From: Branchiostoma floridae
Taxonomy: Eukaryota > Chordata > Leptocardii > Amphioxiformes > Branchiostomatidae
Length of the DNA: 64,000 nt
Assembly: GCF_000003815.2 (NCBI RefSeq)
Contig: NW_023365777.1
Location: 523,790-587,789 of the forward strand
Direction of reading: 5' to 3'
How positions within the stretch are numbered: position 1 is the stretch's first letter; the number at the start of each line of letters is the position of its first letter. Below, piece by piece: positions 1,395 through 52,400 of this stretch. Both the position numbers and the translations under genes were made by a program. The notes beneath the pieces are model-generated. The model was not told the DNA's origin and ran no database searches. It saw only the letters and a list, made by a program, of their open reading frames with translations.

Positions 1395-4300
1395 TTAAAA
1401 ACAACATGAAGTCTGGATGACGTCAGGGTCCAGGTATGAGAAAGGCGGGGACCTTTCCTTCTTCTTGTTGCTTGCTGAAATCGTGGCCATATCTTCCCGA
1501 AAACTATAGTAAAAAAGTTACATAATGAAATAACATAAACAAAAAAAAAAACATTTAAAAAAACCAAATAACATTCATGGGCACCTCACAATATGTACCG
1601 TTGCTATATTATGAAAAATAATATATTATACTACGAGTATATGGAACACATAGGAAAGTGCATATAGACAAAAGGGTGAACTAAATTCCGTATGATTTAC
1701 TCTTAACTACGTATACATTTTGAGATAATTGTATGAGATTTACGTAGCAGTGAATCTGTATAACGATGTATATTTCATTGAACTAACCTAAACAATAAAT
1801 CCAATTCTCCAACTCGCAGAGTATGCCACTGCACCACTTTCACATAACATACTGCTATTTTCACATCACCGCGGACCCACACCAAGACAATATCTCGTTT
1901 CCATAAAGGTAATAAATGAACGTCTTGCAATAGCTCATTTCTATAAACTTTAAAGGAATAAGCGAATGTTTTACCGTCTGACCGCGGCCTTCCCCACTGG
2001 TGAGAATAGGAAGTTGTTTTTGAAGTCGCCCAGTGTGTCCCTCAAGTTTCCCTTACAACTCAGCAGCCTTGTCATAGACATCATCCGCAGGGTCTCCTGC
2101 TTGTTTGGTACGTACTTCAGCACATCATCTATAGTTAGACGGGTCTGGACGGAGAATCCACAAAAAGAGATGAGTCCTTAATGTCAAAATGCACGTTTTC
2201 TTGTCTAAATAGAATATTTGACACCCAGGAGGCCATGTTCATGACATCCACGCAAGTCAACTTTTGGCCGTCTAAAAACACGTTTTCAACCATGCTTTAT
2301 ATCGTACAAAGCAACTGCAAAATGAGCAAATTTAAGCTGGAGATTGCAAAAATGATATGAGGCCAATTCCAAGGCCAAAGAAGATGTGAAAGACCAAAAA
2401 TGAAGTATCTATTGTACTTATACGATATACATAAAATAGACCAACAACAATACCTCCCCTTAAATTAGTAGCCTCTTCCATTGACCCCATGACCCGGAGA
2501 GTCTTGCCTGATTAACGACTAGTTCTACCAAATCTGACCTGTACTTCCTAGTTCCTACTGATCCTGCAAGTCTGATATTTGCGGTAATCTTCTGTCTCTG
2601 ACAGTGCTTTTAAAACGGAAACACACCACCCCCTTAAAAAAACTAACGTAATACATGAAGTTAAAAGCAACGCCCGACAAAGTGTTAGCGTAGCCAAAAC
2701 GATGTGATTTGTTAGATACCTTGTCTGTGATTGGATTGCCGACGAGGTTGAGAGGGTAGTTGGGTGGGAAGGCACACTGGCTGTACATCTGTAGGCTGAC
2801 AGCACGCGACACCGTGCTGGTAAAGATGACTGACGTCACCGTTGCAATGACGTCATCGACAGTCTTGAACTCACCTTCACCGGGAACCCCCTGTGGCACA
2901 GAGGCAACGTTTCTGTCATTAGCGTCATTTTCATTTCTGTATTTGAGCTTCACGGAAAGATTGGAAGTAGGGCATTCCTATACACGTTACGTCACATAAT
3001 TGCCTCTAGCGAAATAATTGCAAGGACACTAATTTGGGGTTGGCAGTATACTTAAGGAGAGGGCGGGATTTTTTATGCAGATTTTGTAAGGAAGGGTCAC
3101 GCTATGGGTCACGTTATATAACCCTAACCCTAACTCAACCTTAATCCTATTACTTAACCCTAACCTCAAACCCTGCCCTAGCCCCAACCATGACTATGAT
3201 TTAGTAGCTTTTCTAGCAATTATTTGGCAACGCAATGATATCTGACGCGACACTGGTACCTCTAGCGGAGTACAGGTGATTATAGAGTATGCAAGTAAAA
3301 TCATACAACGAATAAGAAATGATAAAAAAAGAACAAATATCAACTATCGTAATAATTAAAAAGCAAACCTTCCCAACCTGCCAGTCTCCGGCTACACCAT
3401 AACATGTGCATCCTGCTAATCTACAACGCTGAAATAACTACAGACAAACACCTCGACAAATAATACACCCATTTTCATGGCAATGGTCTGCTTGATCGGT
3501 CATCATGTACCTGAATGCCTGCACCACCCTCGGCAGCTGCTTTAGTCATCTCCTCTCTCCAGGCCCTTAGCTCCTGGTCCCCTGAAACTTTATCCGTGTC
3601 ATCTGAATTTGGTTAAAAAGACGGAAGAAAAAAGATATGGAATAACGTATAGACCAAACGTAAATCATTCATATAGTAAAACGAATGATTTGCATATCAC
3701 TTATGAGGCAATTGTCATCGTCAATGCAGTCCCAAATGTGAGTTTACACTCCCATTGTTCCCTTTCGATAAATGCACTTAGTTGTGTATAATAAACTTTG
3801 CTGTTCAGCGGCGTAAAAGCTTAATTTTACCGTAGTGGGCCTTCAGCACGCTCCTGGTGTATTTCTCGATGGCGTACCAAATGGGGAGGGCGTCGTCTCG
3901 GTAGTGGTAATTCGGAAGTGCAGTTGTGTCATCGACCTAGTAAAAATGTGTAATACACAATAGCTATTGTTACATTTGTATGAAATGCACATGCTTTAAA
4001 CCTGCTGTAAAATGTGTTATGTCTCTTAAATATACTGTATGAACACGTTAAAAATGAAAAAAAAAACGTTTCAGTATACACTGGGTGACATTGTCAAAGC
4101 ACATAACCAAATAATTCATTCAAGTACTTTAGATTTGGACTGCATTGTAAGTACTATCTATTTTCATTTACTGTCTACATGCCTTACATTTAGGACCGCA
4201 ATTGTTAGCAGCGACACCTATTTGCAGTTCGTAACAGAACCAGCCACAATTGCATTCACTGAGGATGGTGACAGACGGTCTTGAAATAAGTATTTTGTCG

Positions 4301-7300
4301 AACAAAGAATCAAGCCCTGTCCTTGGTACTGAATTGGCCTCACCTCTCGATTCTCCAAATCACGAGGCAAGTTCCCTTCCACGTTCATTCTCCAATGGCT
4401 TTTCCACCTACAAAAAAGATTATCACAAATTATAAATTTACACTGTGATTTATATAGAGCAAACAACGGGTAGTACAGCACGGTAGTGAAAGACAGTTTG
4501 GTCCATCCTATAGCATTTAGATGTGTCCATATTGAGTTATACTAATATAGTATCACCAGTACAATGCCTTGATAAAATGACTCACCCTCTTTGCAGGATG
4601 TCGATAAATCCATCCCTGCCGATCCTAGTGGTTTCGTCCATCCACTGCCCCGGATCGAGCATACGAAGCGTTTCTCTGCAAATATATGTTGCAAATACTG
4701 ATAACTCTTTTTTTTAAATGACCATCTTAACGTAAAGATGACATGGCCAATGTAACCTCCATCTGATGATTTTTCTCATGGAAACCTCATTAAGGATTCT
4801 TGTCTACATGGTAACCACCTGTCCACATAGACTAACTTCATTGGTCTCTTGAGTGGTCTTCTAGGGCAGGTTATGGCTGTAGGTCCATGACTTGAAGGTA
4901 TCGCTACCATGTACCGACAATGTAGGGAATAGGGAAGAAACGTGTTAAAGATAGATCTAAATTTGATAATAGCATAGCCTTATATGTTTAAAATTGTGTA
5001 AATGACAGAATTGTAGTGTAGTGTAAATGAAAGTGTAGCATAAAATATGTTGCTTTGTTTACACCACTGACACTGTTCAGGGCCGCTACAGGACTGTTCA
5101 GGACACACGTGCGTATATATTCAAGTCCGTATGAAGTCCGTACGGACGTCTTAGCCTCTACTAGGCTCCACACGTTGCTGGAAAAAGAATAGAAATTGGA
5201 TAAATATGATACATAATATGTCAGACGAGTTAGCTGGCTCACAAACCGTACTCCTCGGTCAGCTACTCCTTTGGCATATTATGCATCTATATTTGCCCAA
5301 TGTGTACTACTATTACAGTGACCTGTGAAGCCTGGTAGAGGCTAAGAATTCCATACGGACGTCATGTAGATTTGACTATATACGCAGACCCATTTACGTA
5401 AACGTGAAACAACTGTATTTTAATAGCCCATATGAGCTACGTTCGAATAAAGATCATTATTCTTGAAATAGTTGAACTGTAATTTCCAACACAAAAATTG
5501 GACTCACCAATTTTCGTCCGCATAGCATCAGTATTTGTCAAGGATTGAACAATCCACTGCTGTCGTGACGTCACGTTATGCAGATAGAACACGTGACTCA
5601 GTGAGCAGTGGATTACAGGTTGCAGGAGTGAGTGCATGGGCGAGTCCAATATTTGTGTTGGAAATTACAGTTCCACTATTTCAAGAATGACTTCTACCAA
5701 CACAGATTAACTTTTAAGTAGAGATCATCATTATTAGGAAATGTTGCAAGAACAAAATTTAAATGTTTACTGACGGACCTGTTTGCCGGGATGAGCTGGT
5801 TGAAGTGCGGCGCCAGGAGACGGGAGACGGGGTGAGACACGGACAGATTCCGGTGGGCACACAGGGCGACAGACTCCATGGCCAGACGAGAGAACCCTGC
5901 AACATATGCGTAACGTTACGTTGTTAAAATATTTATGGAGGTTATATTTCACTAGCGTTTGTGTGTGTGTGTGTGTGTGTGTCTATTATTGTGTGTGTGT
6001 GAATGTGACAAGATAACTCAGGAACGGCTAAGTGGATTAATTTCATAATCAGAGTGTTAGTAGGGCGTGATAAAAGCTGGAAAGGATTAGATTTTAGCCC
6101 CCAAGCGTCTTCCCTTGGTACTGCATCGTAGCTTCAGGTTTTGCTATCTCGTGTTCTGAACAAGCTATGGTCACGATTTTTAGGTGTTGGGTAGCTCTTG
6201 TGCTCAGAAAGACGTCACAGAAGTTTTGGCTCCCTAGTTTCATTTCTTTTCTCATCAACATGATTTATGTTAACATTTTTAGTCAAGTTTCATAGGAAAC
6301 TAGACGGCTCAATCCTTAAGACATTTCTTTCTTTCTGACTTTAAAAGCAACCTGTCATCAAATAACAAAACCCTGCAGCATGTCCAAGACAAAATACACA
6401 AACGCTAGACGTTTTTTGCAGTATCAAGGTCGGTCGCCAGGAGGCCCATATTCGATCTACACCGTCGTAGTCTATCATGAAGTCCCTTCATCCATTCAGC
6501 ACCGTCTCACAACTTTGCCGTCGTCCACTCGCCAACCAGGATTGGTGCAAAATTGGGCTAAGATTCACCCTAGACTAACTCCATAACGCTCCCCTGATTG
6601 TATCCAAGTAGAATATGATCTTTCCAACTTTGATTTTTCAAACTTCGTAGCCGCCGACAATTTTAAAGACTAGCAGTAGGTAATCTCGCCGAACAGGGTC
6701 AAGAGGTCATGGCCGGCTACATGTGACAGGGTCTTAACAGTAAATGCGGTATCTCACTGCACTTGCGTCATCCTTGCGTCACTACGGGACTCGAAATATA
6801 CTCAACGAATTTTAGAGATAAATAAGGAATTTTCTTACACTGTGTGTATTTTGTCGTCTTCTGAAGTCATACTTTTACATATTATGCAATATCTAAATTA
6901 TGAAAAAAAATCAGAGAAAATAACAAAACAGTGAACGCAGTGAACGAACCCCGCGGTGACGCTATCTTGACGCAAATGCAGTGAGATACTACCTTTAAGG
7001 AAGGCGGCACCTACCGAAGTTTGCGCACGCCAGGTGCCAAGAAGCCTCGGCCAGGTTGTACCACATCTTCACCAGCAGCCAGGTGTACGGTGGGTCCGTC
7101 GGCAGGAATACCTGGACAGCCTGGACAGGTAAAGGGGTGAGATGAAACTAAAACATCACGATTACATTACCAAAAACATACCGCTTACTAGCAGGTAAGC
7201 AGGAAACAGGAACTTCTCTAAAAGCGATACTAAGTACCAACAATCTCGTTAACAATCATCCTGAAAATCTTAGTAATTGCGTTTAATCGACAAAATCAAT

Positions 7301-10300
7301 GATATAACATTCGTTCGTCCGTTGGCACATACGTTAGCAGATTTCCTTGCTGTTTCAGTGTCAGGGTATTAACATTACAGGAGTGGTTTGCTAGCCATTC
7401 TGTTTTAACGTGCTAGAGGTACCTCCTAGAATATGAAACTCCCATTTTACGTTCCTTCCAAAAAAGGCATACAGCCCTATAATCAAGTGGTGTCTTATCA
7501 GGATTCCAGGTTTTCCCAGTCACCAATTAATTGGAATCAGCAGCGTAACTGTAAGGCTGCTACCAGTTGCACTACAAGGAAATCCCCATTCAGCAGTATG
7601 TATATAATATATATATATATATATCTTTGACTTTCTATTGGAGAAAAGATGTATTGTACATGTACAGTCGGTAAATATAACGTATCCATTAGGCATATAC
7701 ACTTCTTACCTTGAGCTCATCAGGGAACAACTGGATGGCTATCGGCATGAGATCTCCTTCGTCATCCACGAAGAACAAAGCCATTGGTGCACATAGCTGG
7801 AGAAAATACATGCAAAGTATTCATAGGTATAGCTAGGATCATATTTCAAAACCGGGGCCCGAACGGGCTGTTTGGGGAAATGAAACGAAAATTAAAAATA
7901 TATACCTAGAAATAAACACAAATCATGCCCACGACTCCCATGTTTACGTTTTGCGTATTTTGGTGCCTTTTTGTGTGGTATTTATCGTTCCCGAAAGCTG
8001 TCCGGTCGCGGCCCGGTTTTAAATGTGACCTATATTATACTATATGTTACGTGAGCTCACCACCGCACAACTAGGAAGCAACTTAAACCAAATACATGAT
8101 GGGCATCTTCACATGGTCTAGCCAGACAAACTACTGTTCTGTCTATTCATACTAAAAGTTAGTAAAACATAGTCATATGTATGGTGACCAGCCCCTCCAG
8201 TTTTGTCCTGCCACTTGCTACATTATGTAATGTAACACCAAAGGTTACTGCTGCAACTTCAGTGACAATGATGACAGCCGCCAAGTCCAAGTCATTGACT
8301 TGATTTGTTCGAATAAGAATAAGAAAAGGTAGCCGAAGAGAAAGAAACGGAACAAAATCAAATCAAGTGTTTCTATTCGGTTAAGGTTGACATATGATAA
8401 TACATGTACATGTAAAAAGAGCTGCATTTGTTGTTACGTTTTCCTAAGAATTTGGTTGTCGTTCTGTATCCATATTTTATACAAAATGTACTGACGCAGG
8501 TTGGGGCTCCACACGTTCAATCACTTACCTTATACAGGCATGAGAAACAAACTTATCATAAAAATGTATTTTTCAATATTCGTAATATTTGTAAAGGAAA
8601 ACAGGGTCCCTACCACGTTGCCGTCAATGCATTTGACCCCCTTTAGCATGGTGAGGTCAGTCAGATACAGCCGCTTGTCTTGTATGGCCTGTTTCAGGGA
8701 CACGTCCTTTAACACGTCCTTCACCATCTCTTCTGTCACGTTGAGACTTGAAATTAAAAGATCGTGATAACAGAAAGTCAAAATGAAGGTGCGACTTGCA
8801 ATACGGTAGAATCTATTAACATGTAAGGCTTTTGAATTACAGCAACAAAAGGCCATACATAACCAGGAAAAACACAACAAAAACGATACCAACACTCCGT
8901 TAATCAGTAGCCTATTAGACTCTTTACGTCGATGAAGGTTAGACATCCAGGTAATAAGATATGCCAAAAAGTAATTACTCAAGCAACTGGATATGATTTT
9001 GGAAACGGTCAGACGTTTCGCATAGTATACACTATCCTTCGTCAGTGACACTGACCGTTTCCAAATCATATCTAGTTGCTTGAATAACTGCTTTTTGGCA
9101 TATCTATCTCCAGTGTCACTGACGAAGGATAGTGCTAGTGGATACTATCCGAAACGTCTGACCGTTTCCAAAGTCATATCCAGTTGCTTGAGTAACTACT
9201 TTTTGGCATATTAGACTCTTTCATGACCTGGACTGCCATGACTAAAGAACGATTTGTTCTACCACTTCTGACCTAAGCACTTCGGCAAAAGCAACAATAT
9301 TGGTTATTCGAAGAGGCTATTTGAGAAAGACGAACTACCGTACTACACTACTTGTACGTGTATAATCAACCACTGGTTTGACATAAATTTGTCCCAGGAA
9401 GCCACGTAAACTATTTACAACTAATTCGGGAGTATAGAAGTGTCATCGGATACCTTGCTGGGATTTCCTTGCACAGTTTGATGAGGTTAGGAACCAGACC
9501 CTGAAGCCTCTGCTGTCCGAACATCTTATCGAACCACCAGTTCTCTATTCCCTGTGGTAAAAGGTTAAATAAAAAACATGGTACATCCCGCATCACTCAA
9601 TGTACCAGCCCTCCCGCGGGTCGGAGCGCCTGACGGCCGAAGTCCGGCGGGCGATCAGACCCGCGGGAGGACTGGGACCGAGGCTGTGATAGGGGCTATT
9701 GACAGGGATCTACGACACTTTCCGTCACAAGACAGTTAACGTTTATACAACACATCCAAGGCACTCAGGAGAATGATGTTGATTTGTTGTCGTATACCTG
9801 CCGTGTGGCAAATATGACTGGGCTCCAGCAAAAGCAAGTACGAAATCAACAGGCAGGATGTACATTGTATTTATACGTGCGTCAAGTATACATCAAGTAT
9901 GCACCAAGTATGCATAAAGTATGCGTCAAGTATGCATTAAGTATGCGTCAAGTATGCATCAAGTCTGCATCATAACAGATATACACATGGAAAGTGTATA
10001 ACACAAATGGAATTTCTATTACAATATTTGATTAACAACTTCCAATCTCTTTTTCTATGAAAAAATTGCAGCTACCAAGAAGATTATACATCTAAAGTTA
10101 TTCAACTACAGCTTCCTTGCTACTACAAACGGCGTTGAAATCTTTGCAATTGTACAAAAAGTTGACAAACACCTGAGGGACTTTAAAGCCAAGCTCGTAC
10201 AAGTCTGCAAAGTGGCTGAGTTGCTTGACCTGTCCCCACTGTGTCAGGCGGAGGAGAAGCTCATCGCTCTTGCATCGGTCTCGAATGTTGAAGTATGTTT

Positions 10301-13300
10301 TCTACAGAGATTGGAAAAAATGAGAACACGTATAAAGAAATACAATTTTATCACTCTACGTAACAAGCTATAGTAACAGTCTCAATGCCACCTGTTAGAC
10401 TTGAATGGGGCTAAACCAGTCGACGGTTTAGTTCTTGACATTTTTGCAAGCGCCTTATACCCACGCCGATTATAAGCTGACATTTTTCTTGGCTGCGCCG
10501 ACAATACCTTGTATTCCTGTGCCCACATTGCCTGTCTTGGTGATCCGGCAACCTGTAGAAAAGGGTAAAAACACAAAACATCAAAACCGGATATTCCGCT
10601 GAACTTTTGTTTTACCTCCCCGACAGAGTACCCAATGTTTTTCACAAGAGCCGCAGGGGGAGGGGCGATCCCTACCCACTCACCAAATATAAGGATCCAC
10701 CACAACTTCTCGAGTTATTCTGTCCACTTCCCCATGGGGTACAATTTGAAACTGTTTAAGTCAAGTGTTAACAGACATCTTTCTTCACAATACAGTATTG
10801 TAACCCCAAACGCTTGAGTGGCTCCATGAGCCTTGTTTTGCGGTGAGTCCTAAGTAAACAACAACAAAAAACTGACAGAAAGATAAACGGCACAAAAACA
10901 TGACCTTCTTGGCAAGGGTAATAAGCTATGACCTGTACGGGACACCCGTCAGCCAATGATGTCATTTGGAAGTCCTTCTTCTTGTCGTTGAGCTCCCGTC
11001 GTCGCTGTCCCGGGTGGGGGTCGTTCTGCGGTAAGCAGCAGTTGAAAGGCGGGATGAAGAGTCTTTTCCCCGGTCCGGGCTTCAACCACCTGGCGACGGA
11101 AGAAAAACAAGACTATCATCTAGCATGACAGTTCATCCTCGTCTTGGTAAGTGGCATTATGAAGAAACTTATCACTTTGAACCTTTGTCTAGTGTTGAAA
11201 AGTTCATTCTTCTTATGCGTTTTGATCAAACGACATTACAAACACATCTCAAGCTACATATTTAACATTACTGAGGAAGGAGAAAAAGCCGAACAAATGT
11301 ATTAGACTAGTCTTAGAATCCATGTTTTAGATTAGACTTAGAAACTATGTTTACTGTATTACCACCCTTTGTATCTATATGCCTGTACTTAGCCCGATAG
11401 GGCACGAATGTCTAATAAAGGCTATTACATTTTTTTCTATTTTGCTTTTGGACAGACGAGGACAATGTGGCACTGCACTCAAGTTAGTTACTTATATTAA
11501 CAGTGACACATACAAAATACAGACAGAAGGTAAAGGAAGACTTTTGTATGACCTCACCGACCGAAGTCAGGTACCCATTTTTATACATGTGTGGAGTCAG
11601 AAAGTTCGTGTTAGGTGCCTTTCCCAAGCGCTCGACGTCGGCGGCATGGCTAGTATCGAACTCAGGACCACTAGATTCCGAGCCGAACGCTCTACCAGGT
11701 ACGCCACATACAACTAAATTGTACCTAACTAATGCTGGAAAAAAATAGTTTTTAGAATGTGATGCACGAACCTCTGGACTGGAAAGGTGTACAGCTCCAC
11801 ATCGGAAAGCGAAGAAATCTTGACGGTATCGACGAAAGTGTCGCCTTTCCCCTCGCTCCAGATCTCCAGTTCTTTAACCTATATATGGACGTGAATTGTC
11901 TGTAAGTATCAATGAGTGAGTGTTCGCCTTACATTCGGTAGGTCGTGAGTTCGATTCCAGGCCGAGTCACATCAAACCAGTTTTTACAAAATGGTACCAT
12001 GGTGAGCACTGTTTTCCCTGCTTAGCATTTATGGGAAAGAGTATGGTAGTTGCAAAAACTATATTATCAGTGGACTAGTCCCCTACTATCTATACGTAGC
12101 GACTTAATTAAGTTGTGTATACGCAGCCCAATGTTCTTTAATTGGGAGCTGGTGTGGGGAGTGGGGAGACTTTAAGTTTATTAACTAACTGCATGAAGGA
12201 CATAGATGGCTTTTCTGTACACTTGTTAATTATGTGGAGCATCATGCTACTGTATTTATTTGGAAGAGAGAACTTTCTTTTGCGACGATTGTAACAGGTG
12301 CAGTGTATGGCAACTTATAGTGTCTGTACTTGCAGTTTTGTTTCAAACCGCTAGGCGATGTGCATGTAACGACTAGTGGTCTTCACGTAATGGATATGAA
12401 CACGCCTTATCCTCCTGAATTTTGGTAAATTTGGATATGCTAGTGAATGGGCATAATGTGTGTATAATCCTTGACATAATGTGTGTATATTCCTTGACAT
12501 AATGTGTGTATATTCCTTGACATAATGTGTGTATATTCCTTGACATAATGTGTGTATATTCCTTGACATAATGTGTGTATATTCCTTGACATAATGTGTG
12601 TATATTCCTTGACTTTTAATTTTCGTTTCCACAAACATCCCGGCCGGGCTATGGTTGGGAAAAGGGATCTTAGCATTCCCCAAGCATCCCGACCGGACCC
12701 CATTTCAGAAAAGGGACCTAAGCCTAACACGTACCTTTTCACGCAGTTGAACGTTGCTCGGCGTGACGCTGCTTTTCGATGCGGAAAGTTTGATGGTTTC
12801 CGTCCGATTACCGGCGATGTCCTCCAAAACGATGAAAATGGGGCTGGAACGTCATAGAAGATTGATTTCCATGTTCGTGCCCCAAAATTTAGATTGCAAG
12901 AGGTAGAGACATTGGTAACATATACAAGTAACGGGAACAATCGTTGGGATGTAACTAGAGACTAATCGAATCTATCTTAGAACAGCGACATCTATGCTGC
13001 AGTGCACTATCTCTATCTATTTATCAAACTCAGTGTAGTCCAGTATTGTAGCAACTGAAATTGTAGTGATATAATGTATATGTGTAGTATGAGACTGTGC
13101 CTTTTGTTGTCTATACATTGCCATACATTGTCACTGATACAATTGTTGTGCAATAAACCATCTACCTATATATTTATCTAATAGTATGTATTATTACTCA
13201 AGTGGCAAGTTCACTCCAAACGATTCTGCTTTGTCTATCCTTTTTGACACCCTTTAACACTACGGCTTTCTCTATTTTGTGAACCAAATGTGTATACATG

Positions 13301-13567
13301 TATATGTGCATGATTGAAAGACCCTTATTGTAAATTCATACCTACGGCTACGACATAGGGCTAGGTACAGACATTTATCTTATGAATTATAACAAACATA
13401 TGACAAAAGAAAGTAAACACGAGAAGACAAGGGTGTTGTAAAAAGCTACTGGTGATCCTTATACAAGGTTTGTCTAACATAAAAAGTGTAAACGACTCTT
13501 ACCCGCCCCTTTCCTTCTCCGTTATGATTTGGCAGGTAGGGCCTGTTGAAGACGAGTTGTTGCCCAT
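1395..13567 (-). CDS. lipoxygenase-family protein lacking most iron ligands (probable pseudoenzyme)
   Basis: Eighteen coding exons join in phase (1947 nt, 648 codons plus stop; animal lipoxygenases are about 660 residues). In transcript order: 13503-13567, 12735-12843, 11772-11878, 10933-11089, 10508-10552, 10173-10301, 9454-9551, 8614-8746, 7710-7796, 7015-7111, 5779-5896, 4586-4675, 4344-4407, 3831-3936, 3511-3602, 2720-2890, 1975-2144, 1395-1503. The start MGNNSSS follows an in-frame stop. Residues of about 20-110 form a shortened PLAT domain, then the catalytic-type domain follows with family landmarks WWFDKMFGQQ, APMALFFVDDEGDLMPIAIQL, HRNLSVSHP, LPNYHYRDDALPIWYAIEKY and FPPNYPL. Lipoxygenases oxygenate polyunsaturated fatty acids using iron held by His, His, His, Asn/His and the C-terminal Ile. 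Aligned without gaps, only the first His remains (SWHLACANF, second is Asn); the third His is Arg and Asn is Leu (FTSTVSRAVSLQ); the C-terminus is SCCF, not SxxI. Dioxygenase activity is therefore unlikely. Intact frame and splice sites argue against a pseudogene. Confidence 0.88.
3115..3190. repeat. short degenerate CCCTAA-type (telomere-like) repeat
   Basis: Within a lipoxygenase-gene intron, ACCCTAACCCTAACTC is followed by decayed CCTAA-like units up to about 3185. Only two units are perfect, so this may be a tiny interstitial telomeric repeat or chance low complexity. Confidence 0.4.
5459..5688. mobile_element. foldback MITE with ~45-bp terminal inverted repeats
   Basis: Left arm ATTCTTGAAATAGTTGAACT... 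and right arm ...AGTTCCACTATTTCAAGAAT are inverted copies over about 45 bp with two mismatches. An inner inverted pair (AATCCACTGCT / AGCAGTGGATT) lies between them. There is no coding capacity. It sits in the intron between the exons ending at 5779 and 4675. Confidence 0.75.
7836..8030. mobile_element. GC-ended MITE (family A copy 1)
   Basis: Inverted ends AAAACCGGGGCCCGAACGG and the reverse complement of CCGGTCGCGGCCCGGTTTT flank an AT-rich core. The same end type recurs at 15441-15625. Non-coding; lies in a lipoxygenase-gene intron. Confidence 0.6.
8958..9212. mobile_element. palindromic foldback element in lipoxygenase intron
   Basis: The segment reads as a long imperfect hairpin. ATGCCAAAAAGTAATTACTC at the left is mirrored by GAGTAACTACTTTTTGGCAT at the right. 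Inside, GAAACGGTCAGACGTTTCG, ACTATCCTTCGTCAGTGACA and their complements recur three times. ATTAGACTCTTT occurs on both sides (about 8914 and 9210), possibly a flanking direct repeat. No coding capacity. Confidence 0.75.
9588..9700. mobile_element. GC-rich hairpin element, related to 58436-58575
   Basis: CAGCCCTCCCGCGGGTC is mirrored by GACCCGCGGGAGGACTG around a GC-rich loop. The flank CCCGCATCACT resembles CCGCATCACT of the hairpin at 58436, and both share the core CAGCCCTCCC-CGGGTCGG, so the two are probably relics of one family. Confidence 0.55.
9877..9970. repeat. 12-bp tandem repeat
   Basis: About eight copies of a 12-bp unit close to AAGTATGCGTCA. Intronic in the lipoxygenase-like gene. 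A short open frame here is an artefact of the repeat. Confidence 0.85.
11640..11705 (-). repeat. tRNA-derived SINE-like unit
   Basis: On the minus strand a pol III A-box-like TGGTAGAGCGTTCGG is followed about 20 bp later by a B-box-like GAGTTCGATAC (11653-11663). A complete cloverleaf with mature acceptor stem is not evident, so this is a SINE head or tRNA relic rather than a functional tRNA. Confidence 0.55.
11909..11975 (+). repeat. partial tRNA-derived SINE-like unit
   Basis: GTGAGTTCGATTCC (11945-11958) is a good B box with a weak A-box-like stretch before it. It lies just outside a PLAT-domain exon. Probably a degraded SINE. Confidence 0.4.
12450..12617. repeat. 23-bp minisatellite, about 7 copies
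   Basis: Near-perfect tandem copies of a 23-bp unit starting CATAATGTGTGTATATTCC. Because 23 is not a multiple of 3, all frames cycle, which creates spurious repetitive open frames on the minus strand. Intronic in the lipoxygenase-like gene. Confidence 0.9.
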
Positions 13568-17142: not shown

Positions 17143-17547
17143 CTTCCTGACTTGAAACGTTCCGTGTTTCCCCTTAGCTTATTCAGACTAATAAAAACCA
17201 ATCTGGTAAAGCGTGCCATACGTGAGTACCTGGCGTTAAAGAATGTCTCTGTTGTTGTTACGACGCAACTCCGCTATATATATGAAAATGCTTGAAATAA
17301 CGGAGACTTAATCAAGTGGGGCGCTGGTTGTTGCAAGATCCGGTGCGGTTAGTGCGCTGTTGCGCCACCGCAGACAACACGGCTTTTCTCTGAGCTGCTT
17401 AGCTGAAGTCGTGGGAGAGAGAGACTAACGGTAAGAATTTTGTAGAGCCATCACATTTTAGCTCACCCTTCTTTGGTAAGGATATGTATATGCAAATGAT
17501 ACTATAGGAAGCAGCTATCCATGTGCATGGTGTGTTGACTAACTATC

Positions 17548-20500
17548 ATGGCTACGAAGTTGACGGTAAAGGTCTGCTTGTTGCTGCTCTCGCAGCTGCT
17601 AGTGCATAGTGTGGACGCCGGTAGCTGGCAGGGCTGCCGTGAGGTGTCCGTGGCAAAGTGTGGTGTAGGTGATAGCGGTCTGGATGGTCGTGAGTACCGG
17701 TACGACACTGGAGCGTACCGGTACAAGTGGACCAAATACCCGCGTGAAGTAGCCAGTTACGAAGGCCCGTTTCGAACCGTTGCTTTGAGTCAGAAGTACC
17801 AATCCTGTCAGGTCTGCTCAAATGAAACAACGCCTACTAAGGGGGGTCCCACTCGGAACCTATCCCCACAAGGGACAACCAACATCATGATCGTTGACAC
17901 TAACGTGGGCAAGCTTGGCACTGAAAAGGCAGAGATCCTCTCTCAGATCCCCTGTGGTGGATATTGTAAGCTGTGGTTTGTGGGTTGTAACCTAACGGAG
18001 ATAGAGGGAGGGGCGTTTGCTAAGTTGCCACAGGTCTCCACCCTGGTCATCTGGCGGAGCAATGTCCAGACTCTGAGGAACGGCACGTTTGCTGGGATGG
18101 AAGGTATTAAACGTCTTCTGCTGTTGGAGAACAACCTGACACATCTGGAGGTAATTATATTTCACAACACGCAATTCTTACAAATATTCTTCAGATCTGT
18201 TGTTATTGATTTTTACTAATGATCATGTCATTGTTTGTGTTCAGGGATTCCTTCGCGTATTTTATTTCACCCCATATGCCATAAAATAGGAGGAATTTAG
18301 GAAGTACATGGTCTTAAGCTTTTGAAAACAATTTTCCCCTATTATGCGCTATGGCATACGCTTTACTGTAGTTTATAGTTCTATAGTACTGTTGACTGTT
18401 GTGCTGTGTAGTGTTGATGTTATCAAACTGGACTGTCCACTGTTCTTGTCCACTGTTGTCTAGCGCTAGTGTAAAGGGCCTTTATAATCGTTATGATATG
18501 ATATTATACATATTTGTAGTAATCTTTTTTGTTTTGTTTATTACTATGGTTGTTTGCACACTTCTATTCAGTTGTTATATCATTGTGTTCTTGAAAAAAA
18601 AAATAGAATTGAATAAAAAAACTTTCTGTTGCAGGATGGCTGCTTTGATGGGTTGCCCAGCTTGTCCTTGCTCATCCTCGTGGACAACCGAATCCTGACG
18701 CTGTCACCTGACACGTTCCGGGGAGTGCAGCTGCAGTGGTTGGACGTAAGTGCAAATCACCTCACTAGCGTAGCTGCTGGGACCCTGCAGGCGATCAAGT
18801 CCGTAGAACATGTCCACGCCGCCGAGAACAAACTGCGAGCGATCGGCGCCGGAATGTTCCACGGTCTTGAGCGGCTGCGGATCGTGATACTGGAGGGTAA
18901 CAGAATCTCCCACATCGCTGCATGCGCGTTCCACTCAAACACGAAGTTGTCGATGTTAAACCTGGCAGGAAACAGGCTGACCTTCCTGTCCGGCGGTTGG
19001 TTCAAATCGTCATTTCCATCCACATTCCTCGTGCGTGGAAATGCGATTGCCGCAATGGCGCTGGAAGGGAAGTCGCTGAAGTTTAGACGTGTCGTCCTGG
19101 ATAATCCGCCGCGCTGTACGTGTGCTAATGATTGGCTGTACGATCATGAAGGGCTCGGCCCGTTCAAGTTCGGGCAGCGTCATTTCCTAATGGCAATACG
19201 AGTGCCCTCGAGTGCAAGCTGTCCCGGCTCGCCTGCCACTCCTAGCGCACTGCCCTGCCCGGCGCCACTGGTCGAAATCGCGAATGTCGAACGCAATGCA
19301 GCGCAGAAGTACGAAGCCCTTGGCAGCGTGTATTGGGAGCAGTTGCCCCGATTGTCGTGTGCCTTCCCTAACGGGTCACGCCACGCGCTCAACATAACAT
19401 ACGACACAAACACGACCACACACGCCCGTCTGCCGACAGGCAACCTAACCGTAAGCGTGGTGACCGACCTGAAGGCTGAGGGCTGGGTGAAATGCACGGG
19501 GCCAGCAGAGCACCCATTTTGGCTATCAGGAAATCACAGCCTGTGCTCTAACTACATGGGAAAGTCCAGCTTCACAATGTGGCTAAAGAGTACCGAGCCC
19601 TTGGCCTTTGCAAACACCACTTGTACTGCCTCTTCTAAAACTGGCACCCACACTGCTGTTTTCATGGTGAGCGAGCGCGCACACTCTGGCATAACCACAC
19701 CACACGCCACAGAGCTCTCACCCATGAACACGACACCACCAGTCAACATCACCACCACACCGTTGCCTAGAGTCATCAGCACTACACCAGTCGTGTCCAC
19801 AAGCGCCAACGCCTATGTAGACTTGACGTGGTACATCGTGTTTGCAGCTATTGGCCTGTCGTCTCCAGTTGCTGCGCTAGGGGTTTGGGGATGTGTCAGC
19901 TGTAACAAGCGAAGGCTCGAGCGTAAAGCGCTAAAGAATGCTGCAGGTCCAAACCACAAAGCCAAAGGCATTCAGATCACTGCCTGCTCCAGGTGGCCTG
20001 TTGGAGATCATGGCAATGTGGATGAGTCAGTGATCAGTCCGTACGCTGAAGGTCGTTTCGAAGATCACGACAGCCTGAATGATTCAGAATCAGTCATCAA
20101 CCCTTATGCTGAGGGTGGTTTCCAGGACCACCCTGATCTGTGCAGCGCAGAGTCTTCTCAGTCAGAAATCGTCCCGTACGGACTGGCAAAGATTTGCGCA
20201 GCGTACGCAGGCCGCGCCCGCGTGCAGACACACCCCGTGTCGTCCCGCCCGTACAGCACCGAGCGCCCTCGTCAGACACCAAACAGGGCAGGGGCAGTCG
20301 TGGCTGCCTATGGCCAAAATGGTCGAGAAAACGCTGGCAAGTCCGGTCGAAACTGCTACCGGCACCCAATCATTCTGCCTAACCCTGGCGCAACCCTAAG
20401 TCCTCTGCCTACCAGCAGAGTGCCAGGGCTGCCCATGGTTCTCACAAGGCACCTTGCTACAACTCCCCTGCCCTGGCAAATGACCGAGAGCGCACCCTGT

Positions 20501-20584
20501 CCAGCACATATGACCAGCATGACCCCAGAGAGGCCGCCCAGGGTTCCCGCAAAACACCTTGCTACAATGCCCCAACCCTGGTAA
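17548..20584 (+). CDS. transmembrane leucine-rich-repeat receptor with tyrosine-rich tail
   Basis: Exon 1 is 17548-18150, exon 2 starts at 18635 after TTCTGTTGCAG; the junction is phase 0. As read the protein is 850 residues, ending at 20582-20584. It starts with a signal peptide (MATKLTVKVCLLLLSQLLV), then a Cys-containing N-terminal region, about eight LRRs (exon 1 end to about residue 335), a C-terminal LRR cap with CTCANDWLYD and later Cys, and an N-glycosylation-rich ectodomain that may hold a divergent Ig-like fold (LSCAFPNG ... WVKC). A Thr/Pro-rich stalk precedes a transmembrane helix at about residues 599-622, followed by basic CNKRRLERK. The cytoplasmic tail repeats ESVISPYAEG and ESVINPYAEG. 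The last ~60 residues are probably out of frame: from 20383 a different frame continues the repeat style to a stop at 20914-20916. It is likely a surface recognition or adhesion receptor; ligand unknown. Confidence 0.85.
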
Positions 20585-20916
20585 ATGACCGCGAGCGTGC
20601 CCAGACCAACACATACGGCCAGCATGACCCCAGCGAGGTAGTCTGCAACTCCGCTCGGTCCCCTACGGGCAATAGCTATGAGCCTGCCGTCTCGCCCAGT
20701 AGCGAGACGGGTGCCCAGTCTGCCATCTATGATGAAAACCATCGTAGGCAGCCCACCACCGGTCGGGGAGACAGTTACGTCTGCCCCTCCCCTGCGGCCA
20801 GTGCTGACAGGTCTCCGGCAGCTACCTACAGCCAAAATGACCGTAGGGAGGCAATAAATGACACCCTAGAGTCCCCCAAGACAAACACCTATGAAGCGTC
20901 CTCCCCTGACACTTAG
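20383..20916 (+). CDS. likely true C-terminal tail of the LRR receptor, after a one-base frameshift
   Basis: A frame offset by one base from the upstream reading frame opens at 20383 and ends at TAG 20914-20916. It encodes two tandem copies of a ~36-residue unit (CYNSPALANDRER ... STYDQHDPREA and CYNAPTLVNDRER ... NTYGQHDPSEV) and further tyrosine sites (NSYEPA, AIYDEN, DSYVCP, ATYSQND, NTYEAS). These match the style of the upstream tail (PYAEG, AAYGQNG), so one missing base between about 20345 and 20400 is the simplest explanation. The corrected protein would be about 961 residues. Confidence 0.7.
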   Translation, partial: PWRNPKSSAYQQSARAAHGSHKAPCYNSPALANDRERTLSSTYDQHDPREAAQGSRKTPCYNAPTLVNDRERAQTNTYGQHDPSEVVCNSARSPTGNSYEPAVSPSSETGAQSAIYDENHRRQPTTGRGDSYVCPSPAASADRSPAATYSQNDRREAINDTLESPKTNTYEASSPDT

Positions 20917-33900: not shown

Positions 33901-35857
33901 GAGCGAACTGTGGGGCAATTGTTAACTCTTCATCTTGTTCCTGAAACCGAGACATATATGAATGTATTATGAACTGGTCAATACACAATGTTAAGAACAA
34001 TCTTCGTATTGCTCTAAGAAAAACCAGAGGGAGCAAAATACATGTACATGTTTCTTTCTTTCTACCAAGAGATAGATCAAAATAACAAAGCATTAAGCTT
34101 CACTTTGTTACTAGTAAGCAACCCTACTTAAATGTCAATTGCCCCTTACTAGTACAAAACTCTTTTTGCATGGATTTCATAGAGATATTTATCTACATGT
34201 CTTACCTCTACTATCAGTTCACCAATGGAATCTCTCTGTGTACTGTGGGCCTGGTTGCTGGTTGGGTCTGGACTCCTGCGGTAGTCAGTTGGGTCATTCA
34301 CACCTGTACAGCCGCCTCCCTGTCCTGATGGACATACTACCCCTCCCACAGTCCCTTCTTCCTCCGAAGGCTGCCCTGCATCAGTAACTGTACCACACTG
34401 TGTCATGACTGACCGGTAGTTACATATAACATTACTACACCTCCCTAAGAGATCTTGTTGACTGGTTTGCGTTGCTGCTTCTGCCTTGTTTTCTTGGCGT
34501 TTGTGAGCCACCGCATCATCACCATTTTTCTCTTCCGGTGGTCGCCCAAAGTGCAACTCTTCATAACTTTTGTGAGGCCCAATTTGTAAAGAAAGTCTTG
34601 TTTTTGGGGTTCCATGTCTGACACTGTCATCACGGTAAAATGCATTGGAGGGGAGACTTTGACTGTACTGTGAGGAAGAACCTGGAAAGTCTTTTTGTCC
34701 ATCAGAGTTGTTTCTGAAATCCTTGTCAAAATCTCCATCCTTCTTATTCTGATTTATTTCAGATATCTCTTTCTGGGAGGGATCGCTCGTTTCTTGTGCG
34801 AATGCAGGCTTTGTAATCCTGTTAAGTTCCTTTTCCCAGTTTGAATTGTCAGAATTGAGATCCAGCTTTAGCGTATCTGGTATGGGTACAACACTGCAAC
34901 CAATTGTTGCAGACAAGGAACTCACCACAGGCGTGGGGAATTCTCTCTTTGTCAGTGATGTATCCCCTGTCATCTTCTCCTTGTCTATAGCTGACAGCAC
35001 TTTTTCTGCATGGAATGTCACACTACCTTTGTCATCAGTTTCATTGGCTTTCTTCTTGGAATCCATAAGATGGACTTCTTCATTAAAGACATATTCTGAA
35101 GATGCAACTTGGTCCTTGTCTTCCTCGATACTGGTTAACATTGTACTGGTTCTTGAAACAAGGTCTCTGCAGTACTTGTGGAGTTCTGACACCATATTCA
35201 AATCCATTTTCTTCTTCCGATCCTGGGCTATGGAGATCGTCTTTCTAGACTGACCATCATGTAGCTGCGCTTTCAGGTCACTCTCCAAAGAAGCCACATC
35301 GTCCGTCATCTGTACCGCAAGCGCTATGATGTTACTGACACGACTGTCAATGGTTGGTGCAGATGCGGCCACCACTTGCCCGCCGTTCCCCATTTGTCCT
35401 GGGTAGCGCTCTTTTAAGGCAAATTGAATCATGCCCCATAATCGCGGACGAAGTTCGGCAAGCTGACGGAGATCATTCTGTGAGAATGGTCCACTTTCCT
35501 GCGAGTCCCTGAACGCTNNNNNNNNNNNNNNNNNNNNNNNNNNNNNNNNNNNNNNNNNNNNNNNNNNNNNNNNNNNNNNNNNNNNNNNNNNNNNNNNNNN
35601 NNNNNNNNNNNNNNNNNGTGGACATACTGTGAGTCTGCTCTTTTCTTCTTCAGAAAGGCCAAATCTTCCAGATCTATTTAGGATCAGGTCCTGTTCAGTG
35701 ATATTTGACCGACCTTGTCCACGCACACTAAGACCAAGTCCCGTAAGGTGCGATGTCAGATCCTTGTTGCATGTAGTTAATGGCACAACAGACTGGTCTG
35801 ATGGGAGGTAATACGTGGGACCTGCTCTGACTCTTCACTCTCAAATGAGCAACTCAT
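27950..35857 (-). CDS. RING-H2 finger protein, probable E3 ubiquitin ligase
   Basis: Ten coding exons in phase, transcript order: 34206-35857, 33869-33940, 33393-33459, 32879-32938, 32190-32293, 31056-31232, 30378-30425, 29736-29877, 29333-29442, 27950-28003. The RING is split over the last two exons: CTIC, then CRHLFHPDC with YHW, then SCPNC; this is the C-x2-C ... C-x-H-x2-H-x2-C ... C-x2-C zinc pattern typical of ubiquitin ligases. The protein ends eleven residues after the last zinc cysteine. The first exon encodes a long hydrophilic, Ser/Asp/Lys-rich region with a weak LSEEEKSRLTVCP motif interrupted by the 100-N gap (35518-35617). The middle exons encode an acidic segment and a compact region (LRDFTLRWPGGDLIPWNTIL ... 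EWRVHW) that I do not recognise. The start at 35855-35857 (MSCSFESEESEQ) requires a one-base correction near 35820. A 5' non-coding exon may lie at 36178-36266. Substrates unknown. Confidence 0.78.
29058..29146 (-). repeat. tRNA-like sequence (type II arm), probably SINE head or tRNA relic
   Basis: The minus strand reads GTGTGGCCGAGCAGTCTA (A box) and GTAGGTTCGAACCCC (B box) with spacing long enough for a tRNA with a variable arm, and an oligo-T run follows as a pol III stop. The 5' and 3' ends do not form a clean 7-bp acceptor stem, so a functional tRNA-Ser/Leu is doubtful. It lies in the last intron of the RING gene. Confidence 0.5.
29186..29220. repeat. CATC/CATGCATC microsatellite
   Basis: GATCCATGCATCCATGCATC then CATGCAACC, three units of an 8-bp repeat, beside a hairpin AGCCGGTGCTATGCACCGGC. 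Intronic. Confidence 0.7.
35518..35617. other. assembly gap (100 N)
   Basis: One run of exactly 100 N inside the large 5' exon of the RING gene. The reading frame is the same on both sides only if the gap length happens to be correct modulo 3, so the missing protein segment (after LTVCP) is unknown in length. Confidence 0.99.
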
Positions 35858-49444: not shown

Positions 49445-52400
49445 CTAGGTGGGCTGTTGAAGTTTCTTGCTGGTGACGAATCGTCTTGCTTCTTTCTTCA
49501 GATGCTTCAACTCTTCTATCTCTTCATCATCGGGTTCCCAGTCAGAGTCCTCATCCTACAGTAAATTGAAAGGCTTGAAATTCATTTTGAGGAAAACGAG
49601 GGGTGCACGTTCAATAAGTTTGTGGCCTGATCCTGAAAAAAGTTGCACAGTTCAAATTTCAGGGCATTATTATGTCAAATAAAGTCTTACACCAAATTTC
49701 AAATCGTTGTGATAATTACTTTCCAGTAGGAATCCTTTTGAAAACCAGTATTGTGTATTAAACTTGTGATAAGAAAAACGAGGATAAATTGTGTGGGTCA
49801 TGTTCCTCATGCCATAAAATAAAGAAGACATTGTCGAGAAGTTTGAAGAGGATCCCTGCATTCAACTAGAAAGAAGTGGGTATTTGACTTTCAGTAGATC
49901 AAGTTGCCCTGCACATTTCTTTTTGTTGCCTGTAAAGTAATGACCATGATTTGAATTCAGTTAGACATTTTTAAACTTAAGGCTTTATAGCATACGATTA
50001 TGCCCACAAATTTGAGTTGTGTACCTTTCTTCTTTGTGACTTGTGTCTTATGACTTGACAAGTGCTTCAAGGTGTGTAAGATGCATATCATGTTATACAC
50101 AGGACTCTAAGATGACACTCATCAATATTTGATAAAGATGACTTGCATGATAATGGCTCTACGACAATAACGTTAATGACCCACTTTCCTTTGGTGTATA
50201 CAGTGTCTCTCATAAGGCATGGTTGGTTCCTATAACCACTAAATAAACAGCCGTGTTTGCTTCGCTCACTTGGTAGTTTTATTCTGTGGTTAGGCCATGT
50301 TGATATATGGATGCCAATTTGTATCAAAGCAAATGCAAGTGTGCAAAAGAAAAGTTTGTCATGATGAACTCTAAGTGGTCAGGAAGGTTGACTACATGTA
50401 TGGTATACCTGCCAATTGAGTTAAACTTTTCATTTCGTTTTTTTTCTTCCTCTTCCTCTTTGACTTTGGAATTGACTTTGGCACTATACAACATTAGCAT
50501 TCAGTTTTCCAATATTTTCTTTCTCTTTGAGGCATATATTTTGCCATTTTCAGCTGCTTTGTTTGTTTTAAAGTATGGTAAAAAAATTCTGTTTTCTGAA
50601 TTGTTGAAAAATTGAAGCATGCACAGATGTCATCCATACAATCCAGTCAACATGGCCTTATATGACCAGCCTTATGAAACCATATACACCTCTGGCAGGT
50701 TAACAAAGCATACATTGTTCACCTGTCCAGCCCCATAACTGGATTGTTCTGAAGCTTCCTCGTCTTCATCAGCCAGGAAACTGTCGTTGTAGTCGTAAGT
50801 GTTGGGCAGACCATCATCATCGCTCTCTCTCTTCTGTCCTGCACCTCCTATAGAGTATAATGAAAATCATGGTTTATTCAGTTGAGGATATCTGTATCTG
50901 TATCTGTATCTATATAGCCGGTATAACCGCCGTTCGGCGTAACACACCAGCTTCGCAGGCACGCGGCGCGGCAGCAGCTGGTTATATTACACCGAACGAC
51001 TCATTACATCTACCTTTTGCACATCTATCTGCAAGCGTTCTTTAAAACTACCCAGAGAAGATGCCGCTACTGTACTTGGTGATAACAAATTCCACTCTAC
51101 GATAGTTCTGGGAAAGTACGAATTTTTGAACACATCAATCCTAGGTTGGTAACTCTGGTATTTGAATGCATGACTCTTTCTTGTTCTTTTTTGAGCTGGT
51201 ATTAGATACTTATCAGTTGGTACGTCCACCAGTTTATTGGTCATTTTGTACATCATGGAAAGTCTGGACATTTTCCTTCTATCTTCAAGTGACATCCACT
51301 GCAAATCTGTTTTCATTTTGGTAACACTAGAATCCCTGTTATAGTTGTTTGTGCAGAATCGGGCAGCTTGGTTCTGTACCCTTTCAAGTTTATCTTTGTC
51401 TTTCTTTGTATACGGGTCCCATACTGTAGCGGCATACTCAAGGTTAGGTCTTACTAGTGACGTGTATGCAAGTGATTTTACCCTGGTTGGGCATGCCCAC
51501 AAGTTGCGTTTGATTACTCCCAATGTCTGTTTAGCCTTGGTTGTTATTTTGTTAACATGGACACCCCACTTCAGTCCAGTTGTTAATGTAACACCCAGGT
51601 ATGGGTGGGTTTTTGTGGTTTCTAATGCCTGACCACAAAACTGGTAAGGGGAAACTTTTGGTGTTCGTTTGTTCGTTATGTGCATGATATAGCACTTATC
51701 AGGATTGAACTGCATAAGCCATTTCCTTTGCCATTCTTCCAGGGTGTTCAGATCTTTCTGAAGAACTTGTGAATCATTTTGTGTGGATACCTCTATATAT
51801 AACAGACAATCATCGGCGAATAACCTCACACTTGAATCGAGCTGGTCTGGCAAGTCGTTTATGTACAAGAGGAAGAGCAATGGTCCCAGCACAGTCCCTT
51901 GTGGAACTCCCGACGCTACTTTAACTGGAGCTGAGGCCTTCCCTTCCACCACTACCGTTTGCTCTCTATTCGTCAGGAAAGCCTTCAGCCAGTTAAGTGT
52001 AGTACCTTGAATTCCATAGAACTCCAGTTTTGATATGAGTCTGCTATGTGGGACTTTATCGAAGGCTTTAGTGAAATCGAGTATTGCTAGATCCACCTGT
52101 CTTTTATTGTTCAGTGCCCCAGCTATGTCGTGAACTGTTAAAATAAGCTGTGTTTCTGTGGATCGCTTTGCTCTGAAACCATGCTGGTAGTCCGTTAGTA
52201 TATTGTGGCCTTCTAAGTGTTTCATGATATGGCTGTGGATAATGTGTTCCAGTAGCTTACAGGAAATACTGGTGAGTGAAACAGGTCTGTAGTTACTAGG
52301 GATCGCTCTATCTCCCTTTTTGAAAATGGCGCATATATTTGCATCTCTCCAGTCTTTGGGGATTTCTCCTGTGTCAAGCGATTGTTGGAAAATGTTGGTT

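Follow-up and report, generated by a model that had tools for sequence, protein, structure and literature searches.

A lancelet lipoxygenase gene with replaced iron ligands and a constrained coding sequence: a probable pseudo-lipoxygenase

The gene and its iron site

A stretch of 64,000 nucleotides from the lancelet Branchiostoma floridae (contig C219, positions 523790-587789, in an assembly of 513 Mb and 431 contigs), here called the window, holds on its minus strand a gene of the lipoxygenase (LOX) family whose iron site appears to have been given up. Read exon by exon, the gene runs from an ATG at 13567 to a TAA at 1395 in 18 exons. The coding sequence comprises 1956 nt including the stop (651 residues plus stop), all 17 introns are GT-AG, the exon phases all join, and no internal stop is present. 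The initial annotation of this DNA described an intact 18-exon gene with matching phases; the open frame and the introns agree with that description, but the length is 1956 nt with the stop and not 1947. The exons are given below with the basis of each in brackets.

13503-13567 (-): exon 1, start codon ATG at 13567-13565, N-terminal PLAT-like part (exon reading; PLAT score under the cut-off)
12735-12843 (-): exon 2, PLAT-like, continuous with exon 3 (no intron) in relatives L024 (C10) and L030 (C13) (exon reading)
11772-11878 (-): exon 3, PLAT-like (exon reading)
10933-11089 (-): exon 4, with a counterpart exon in L024 (exon reading and relative)
10508-10552 (-): exon 5 (exon reading)
10173-10301 (-): exon 6 (exon reading)
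9454-9551 (-): exon 7, where the well-conserved LOX part starts (exon reading, Pfam, relatives)
8614-8746 (-): exon 8 (exon reading and relatives)
7710-7796 (-): exon 9 (exon reading and relatives)
7015-7120 (-): exon 10, HX4HX4H helix with the first, non-ligand His and the first ligand position (exon reading and relatives)
5779-5896 (-): exon 11 (exon reading and relatives)
4586-4675 (-): exon 12, altered, in what we take to be the substrate-helix region (exon reading and codon alignment)
4344-4407 (-): exon 13 (exon reading and relatives)
3831-3936 (-): exon 14 (exon reading and relatives)
3511-3602 (-): exon 15 (exon reading and relatives)
2720-2890 (-): exon 16, with the H550/N554 helix, which is short by one residue against the ten modelled relatives (relatives and alignment)
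1975-2144 (-): exon 17 (exon reading and relatives)
1395-1503 (-): exon 18, stop codon TAA at 1397-1395 (exon reading and relatives)

The window protein scored 151.6 bits against the Pfam LOX domain PF00305 (cut-off 23.6). Its closest solved structure was human ALOX15B (E 7.6e-60, residues 201-649 matched), and coral 8R-lipoxygenase matched residues 65-645 (E 1.7e-58). As judged from its sequence, the gene is thus a member of the lipoxygenase family by descent.

The iron ligands of ALOX5 are given in two published accounts as H367, H372, H550, N554 and I673 (PMC5113960, PMC13014066). The spacing of five between H367 and H372 alone fits either His pair of the HX4HX4H motif. For numbering we took the last residue of the ALOX15B chain (696) to be residue 676, which numbers the three His of the helix as 368, 373 and 378 and a later one as 553. 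The ALOX15B iron ligands are H373 and H378, and this numbering, together with the motif, places the ligands at the second and third His of HX4HX4H. The positions in the window gene are then as follows.

7034-7036 (-): retained His (SWH), first His of HX4HX4H, non-ligand (numbering against ALOX15B)
7019-7021 (-): ligand 1 (ALOX5 H367) replaced by Asn, codon AAC (alignment)
5886-5888 (-): ligand 2 (ALOX5 H372) replaced by Arg, codon CGT (alignment)
2804-2806 (-): ligand 3 (ALOX5 H550) replaced by Arg, codon CGT (alignment)
2792-2797 (-): ligand 4 (ALOX5 N554) position, Ser, Leu or deleted, depending on gap placement (alignment)
1398-1400 (-): C-terminal residue (ALOX5 I673) replaced by Phe (the six relatives with exon 18 end in NAISI)

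We regard it as firm that, at the level of aligned residues, all four side-chain iron ligands have been replaced. The initial annotation had counted four of five ligands as lost and the first His as kept, on an alignment taken to be gapless. The loss of the iron site was correctly recognised, but the count was not: the His in SWH (7036-7034) is the non-ligand first His of the motif, and the H550/N554 helix is one residue shorter than in the ten modelled relatives. Since the sole ligand thought to be kept had been mis-assigned, the iron site is lost more completely than first claimed. Leu, originally proposed at the fourth ligand, is one option beside Ser or a deletion, because the shortened exon-16 helix allows the gap to be placed in several ways, and BLAST, HMMER and MAFFT disagree on its placement. 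A Ser here would match ALOX15B, where Ser serves as the fourth ligand, and would not be disqualifying alone. The change of the terminal Ile to Phe was borne out (codon 1400-1398), the protein ending in QTSCCF where the 6 of 10 modelled relatives with a recovered last exon end in NAISI. By itself, Phe for Ile need not abolish the fifth ligand, since that ligand is the terminal carboxylate, which is still present. Set against the pattern of catalytic lipoxygenases, i.e. His, His, His and Asn/His/Ser with a C-terminal Ile, the window gene thus reads Asn, Arg, Arg and Ser, Leu or a deletion, and ends in Phe with its carboxylate.

New ligands might in principle hold a metal and preserve a redox or isomerase activity, and the first His of the motif is indeed still present. 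The replacements (N, R, R, S/L) speak against such a different metal chemistry, arginine being a poor metal ligand, and we consider it very unlikely.

In the N-terminal part, the intron at 11879-12734 between exons 2 and 3 is present in the window gene and absent from L024 and L030; this intron 2 holds seven nearly perfect tandem copies of 23 bases (12452-12613). The intron and the loss of one residue each in exons 12 and 16 are structural changes specific to the window gene. The idea that a small PLAT exon had been missed in intron 1 was rejected, as no GTD-like motif was found there. Elsewhere in the window, the plus strand at 17539-20581 has two leucine-rich-repeat (PF13855) open frames in a head-to-head arrangement with the LOX gene, and a two-copy repeat of 105 bases was seen at 20427-20638. 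An open frame of 722 residues at 50990-53155 (-) carries a reverse transcriptase domain (PF00078, 134 bits) and resembles a long interspersed nuclear element (LINE). An assembly gap of 100 N occupies 35518-35617. Rfam and tRNA scans of the window gave no matches, and an NCBIfam search gave one chance match only.

Relatives in the genome and constraint on the coding sequence

The window gene is one of a many-exon LOX family; 12 or more relatives lie in the B. floridae genome, on C10, C3, C4, C12, C13, C14 and C19. Ten were modelled exon by exon, guided by the exons, phases and lengths (+/-36 nt) of the window gene, and the two on C19 were covered only at exons 10, 11 and 16. Across the ten, 110 of the 120 exons corresponding to exons 7-18 were recovered, the remainder lying outside the sequence covered or not being found. 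The phases of the LOX part are common to the window gene and its relatives; phase is imposed by the guide, whereas the open, high-scoring exons with AG/GT borders at the guided phases are not. Over exons 7-18 the window gene is 40-47% identical to the ten modelled relatives. The four side-chain ligands (His, His, His, Asn) are intact in all 12 relatives, the two C19 genes included, and a C-terminal Ile is found in all six with exon 18 recovered.

These relatives bear directly on whether the gene model is wrong, with alternative exons restoring the iron ligands. The exon borders and phases agree with those of relatives whose equivalent exons carry the ligands. Further, a pattern scan (HX4H, HX3N, Ile terminus) around introns 9-10, 15-16 and 17 and in the 3' flank returned nine matches, none LOX-like by eye. 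With the common exon layout and the scan both disfavouring it, a modelling error is hardly credible.

In trees with outgroups the window gene falls inside the many-exon family, probably beside two C10 genes (ultrafast bootstrap, UFBoot, 49 and 60, which is weak). In a protein search of the assembly, among the best candidates that were scored, places on C219 gave 56-97% and all others 27-64%, and on these values the presence of another, nearly identical copy in the assembly was rejected.

Selection was assessed with a GY-type codon model (F3x4) on 441 codons from 11 genes. Split codons at exon joins were omitted from the alignment, C4 exon 9 was dropped because the model had cut it short, and C13b exon 12, C10b and C12 exons 17-18, C14b exon 18, and C4b exons 7-9 and 18 are lacking. 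The ratio of nonsynonymous to synonymous change (dN/dS, omega) was 0.060 on the window-gene branch and 0.16 on the remainder of the tree, and neutrality on the window-gene branch (omega fixed at 1) was rejected with twice the log-likelihood difference (2dlnL) at 51.8. Along the omega profile of this branch, a value of 0.15 costs 2dlnL 3.2 and 0.20 costs 6.4, giving an upper limit of about 0.16. In 100 data sets simulated under neutrality on the window-gene branch, estimated omega never fell below 0.417 and the likelihood ratio test (LRT) statistic never exceeded 9.7, compared to 48.6 observed with the same short method. Neutrality was still rejected under two further topologies (2dlnL 59 and 140). 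With the window gene placed beside a two-way root the statistic dropped to 3.8, which we read as the sister half of the branch absorbing the constrained change, and this case was handled as a partly neutral branch in the analysis of a terminal neutral phase. The GC content at third codon positions (GC3) is ordinary (0.67, against 0.63-0.80 in the ten relatives). As the branch is long and synonymous change (dS) is saturated, its omega should be read as well below 1, which is also the outcome of the dN/dS check that the initial annotation had proposed.

Losses of constant residues are unevenly distributed along the protein. The window gene keeps 90 of 133 family-constant columns (0.68), a count requiring at least 6 of the 10 modelled relatives to be present and leaving the two C19 genes aside. 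Among non-ligand columns, 11 of 15 were lost at a distance of at most 8 residues from a ligand as against 27 of 113 elsewhere (P 0.0003), and the clustering is also seen at a radius of 5 (P 0.0008) and 10 (P 0.003). These counts used the corrected ligand columns, whereas a near/far split of omega used the mis-assigned one. Stretches such as HP..LL.PHF and YRDDAL are among the conserved parts. From the aligned columns, the iron centre and its surroundings are lost while more of the remaining LOX body is retained.

The same data allow decay to be weighed, here as a young pseudogene in which constraint ended so recently that no stop or frameshift has yet arisen. A terminal neutral phase of 0.05 substitutions per site costs merely 2dlnL 3.2, omega is an average over a long branch, and the PLAT domain and the C-terminus are eroded, all of which such a pseudogene would explain. 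Against this, for neutral phases of the length allowed, the chance that at least three of the four ligand codons change while all 651 codons stay free of a stop is at most about 1.6e-4, the value at the best-fitting neutral age, and 2.6e-5 when 68 splice bases are counted. Not a single lesion was found across 18 exons and 34 splice sites, and the one-codon deletion in the ligand helix of exon 16 preserves the frame. The low branch omega, the neutral simulations and the limit of about 0.06 substitutions per site on a terminal neutral phase all disfavour decay, which we judge unlikely. Neither disabling lesions nor neutral evolution was thus found, with room left for a very recent neutral phase. 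The view taken in the initial annotation, that a non-catalytic role has been maintained rather than lost to decay, is upheld as regards constraint, by both omega and the intact frame; the lipid-binding, scaffold or regulatory functions it named would be candidates for that role.

A second clade with altered iron sites

Four genes of another LOX clade (L018, L019, L020 and L021) are 39-42% identical to coral 8R-lipoxygenase. Their LOX parts were modelled with a spliced aligner using GT-AG introns, with frameshifts disallowed and stops heavily penalised, so the open frames of these models are partly by construction. L018 (C11, 5065-9016, +) has Arg for H550 and Ala for N554; L019 (C12, minus strand) has Tyr for H367, Asn for H550 and Thr for N554; and L021 (C7, 1178-9623, +) has Asn for H367, Gln for H372 and Tyr for H550. 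L020 (C7, minus strand) has all four side-chain ligands intact but its C-terminus, PNSISR, ends in Arg. None of the four ends in Ile, the last residues being Pro in L018, Pro in L019 (last exon read by eye, not chained), Arg in L020 and Val in L021.

Neutrality was rejected on the branches of L018, L019 and L021 (2dlnL 50.7, 88.6 and 65.6) with synonymous change saturated, in a test on 413 columns with the tips C12, C14b, C13b, ALOX15B and coral omitted. Saturation is deep on the fitted branches of L019 and L020 and less so on that of L021, and their omegas mean only that the value is not near 1.

L018, L019 and L021 resemble the window gene in having lost side-chain ligands with a LOX part that is open in the models. 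They differ from it in belonging to a clade nearer coral 8R-lipoxygenase and in carrying other replacements, and none has lost all four ligands. Because clade and replacements differ, the losses are separate from that of the window gene, and because the 12 relatives of the window gene are canonical, loss of the iron site arose at least twice. Both helix ligand His were present in 9 of 9 additional LOX loci (L009-L017), and H550/N554 in 8 of 9, namely those with that exon matched. Altogether a broken set of side-chain ligands was seen in 4 of the 26 LOX genes examined, 3 of which (two on C19, and L010) were covered only in part. The Pfam listing of LOX places is a lower bound, with one more place (C12:6564946) outside the 26.

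A probable pseudo-lipoxygenase and its possible role

The gene has kept the LOX family signature, lost the catalytic residues and remained constrained in its coding sequence, as a pseudoenzyme would, on sequence grounds only. We think it probable that it encodes a maintained pseudo-lipoxygenase, with a PLAT-like part and a LOX fold, which has given up the iron centre and would not oxygenate fatty acids by the LOX mechanism. The gene, its family, the replaced ligands and the constraint on its branch are shown by the sequence; fold, absence of iron, lack of catalysis and mode of action we infer. The LOX radical mechanism is unavailable to a protein lacking the iron ligands, and this together with the constraint on the coding sequence calls for a role in binding. 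Most likely, such a protein would keep a folded LOX body and act through binding instead of chemistry.

Several observations weigh against this interpretation. Omega on the window branch is indistinguishable from the 0.16 of the family (2dlnL 3.7), and it is an average over the full length of the branch after divergence from the C10 genes, with synonymous change saturated (dS about 5). The codon model alone permits a recent neutral phase up to about 0.06 substitutions per site. The window gene is the most divergent of its family, its 0.68 of constant columns comparing with 0.82-1.0 (leave-one-out) in the other ten, and the clustering of losses around the ligands fades at larger radius (P 0.03 at 12 and 0.06 at 15). 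The initial annotation had read PLAT and LOX fold end to end; the PLAT domain is weak, its region scoring 14.3 bits, under the cut-off of 23, and the equivalent region of a C10 relative 49.6. Further, the last part of exon 11 together with exon 12 shows substitutions at family-constant positions (I to A, A to T, L to M) and is one residue short. With the presumed substrate helix altered and the PLAT region weak, it is uncertain whether lipid binding or docking to membranes has been kept, and a plain reading of the same lipid pocket without iron appears weakened.

This matters for the form that a pseudo-lipoxygenase could take. One version is a non-oxidising lipid sensor or carrier, in which the fold binds a fatty acid or phospholipid and relays a signal without a partner LOX. 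The conservation of much of the LOX body and the low omega are in line with it, but the substrate-helix changes are not, and we regard it as conceivable rather than likely. We favour instead, tentatively and by analogy, a heteromeric or competitive regulator: by partnering or competing with intact sister lipoxygenases, or for their lipid or membrane sites, the pseudo-lipoxygenase would tune those enzymes. The two arginines at ligand His positions may supply the charge lost with the metal and contact the C-terminal carboxylate, which is a guess based solely on where they lie. Taken with the second clade, lancelets could hold a lasting repertoire of lipoxygenases with little or no iron, of at least two origins, selected as regulators or lipid sensors beside active sisters, with arginines replacing iron in the window gene; to this wider picture we give somewhat less than even weight.

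Pseudokinases and other pseudoenzymes have shown that dead enzymes can regulate. Pseudoenzymes are thus known as a kind, while a maintained pseudo-lipoxygenase gene appears new. This rests on weak evidence, a literature search with most subscription journals outside it, which returned no account of a pseudo-lipoxygenase that has its own gene and is kept by selection. Among the entries listed in a search of the lancelet LOX literature, no title or abstract opening was on iron-site loss.

Human ALOX15B and coral 8R-lipoxygenase share the LOX domain with the window protein; their residues at the four side-chain positions are His, His, His and Ser or Asn, and the window gene replaces all four. The many-exon lancelet paralogues have the same LOX-part phases, yet the canonical ligands in 12 of 12 and the Ile end in the six with exon 18. 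The regulator version is modelled on 5-LO-delta-13, an inactive splice form of human 5-lipoxygenase that is reported to reduce the leukotriene output of the active enzyme (PMC4501781). Both are inactive lipoxygenases, the window protein by prediction; 5-LO-delta-13, however, is a splice variant without exon 13 and not a separate gene with replaced ligands. For ALOX15 an allosteric dimer has been hypothesised, in which one monomer is proposed as the regulatory partner, a model that is disputed (PMC12993299). Such dimers consist of two structurally identical, catalytically able monomers, unlike the window protein with its iron ligands gone. If our interpretation is true, the binding roles of the LOX fold are separable from its chemistry, and the lancelet gene is a naturally occurring case in which to test whether, as has been proposed and disputed, one LOX partner acts purely as a regulator.

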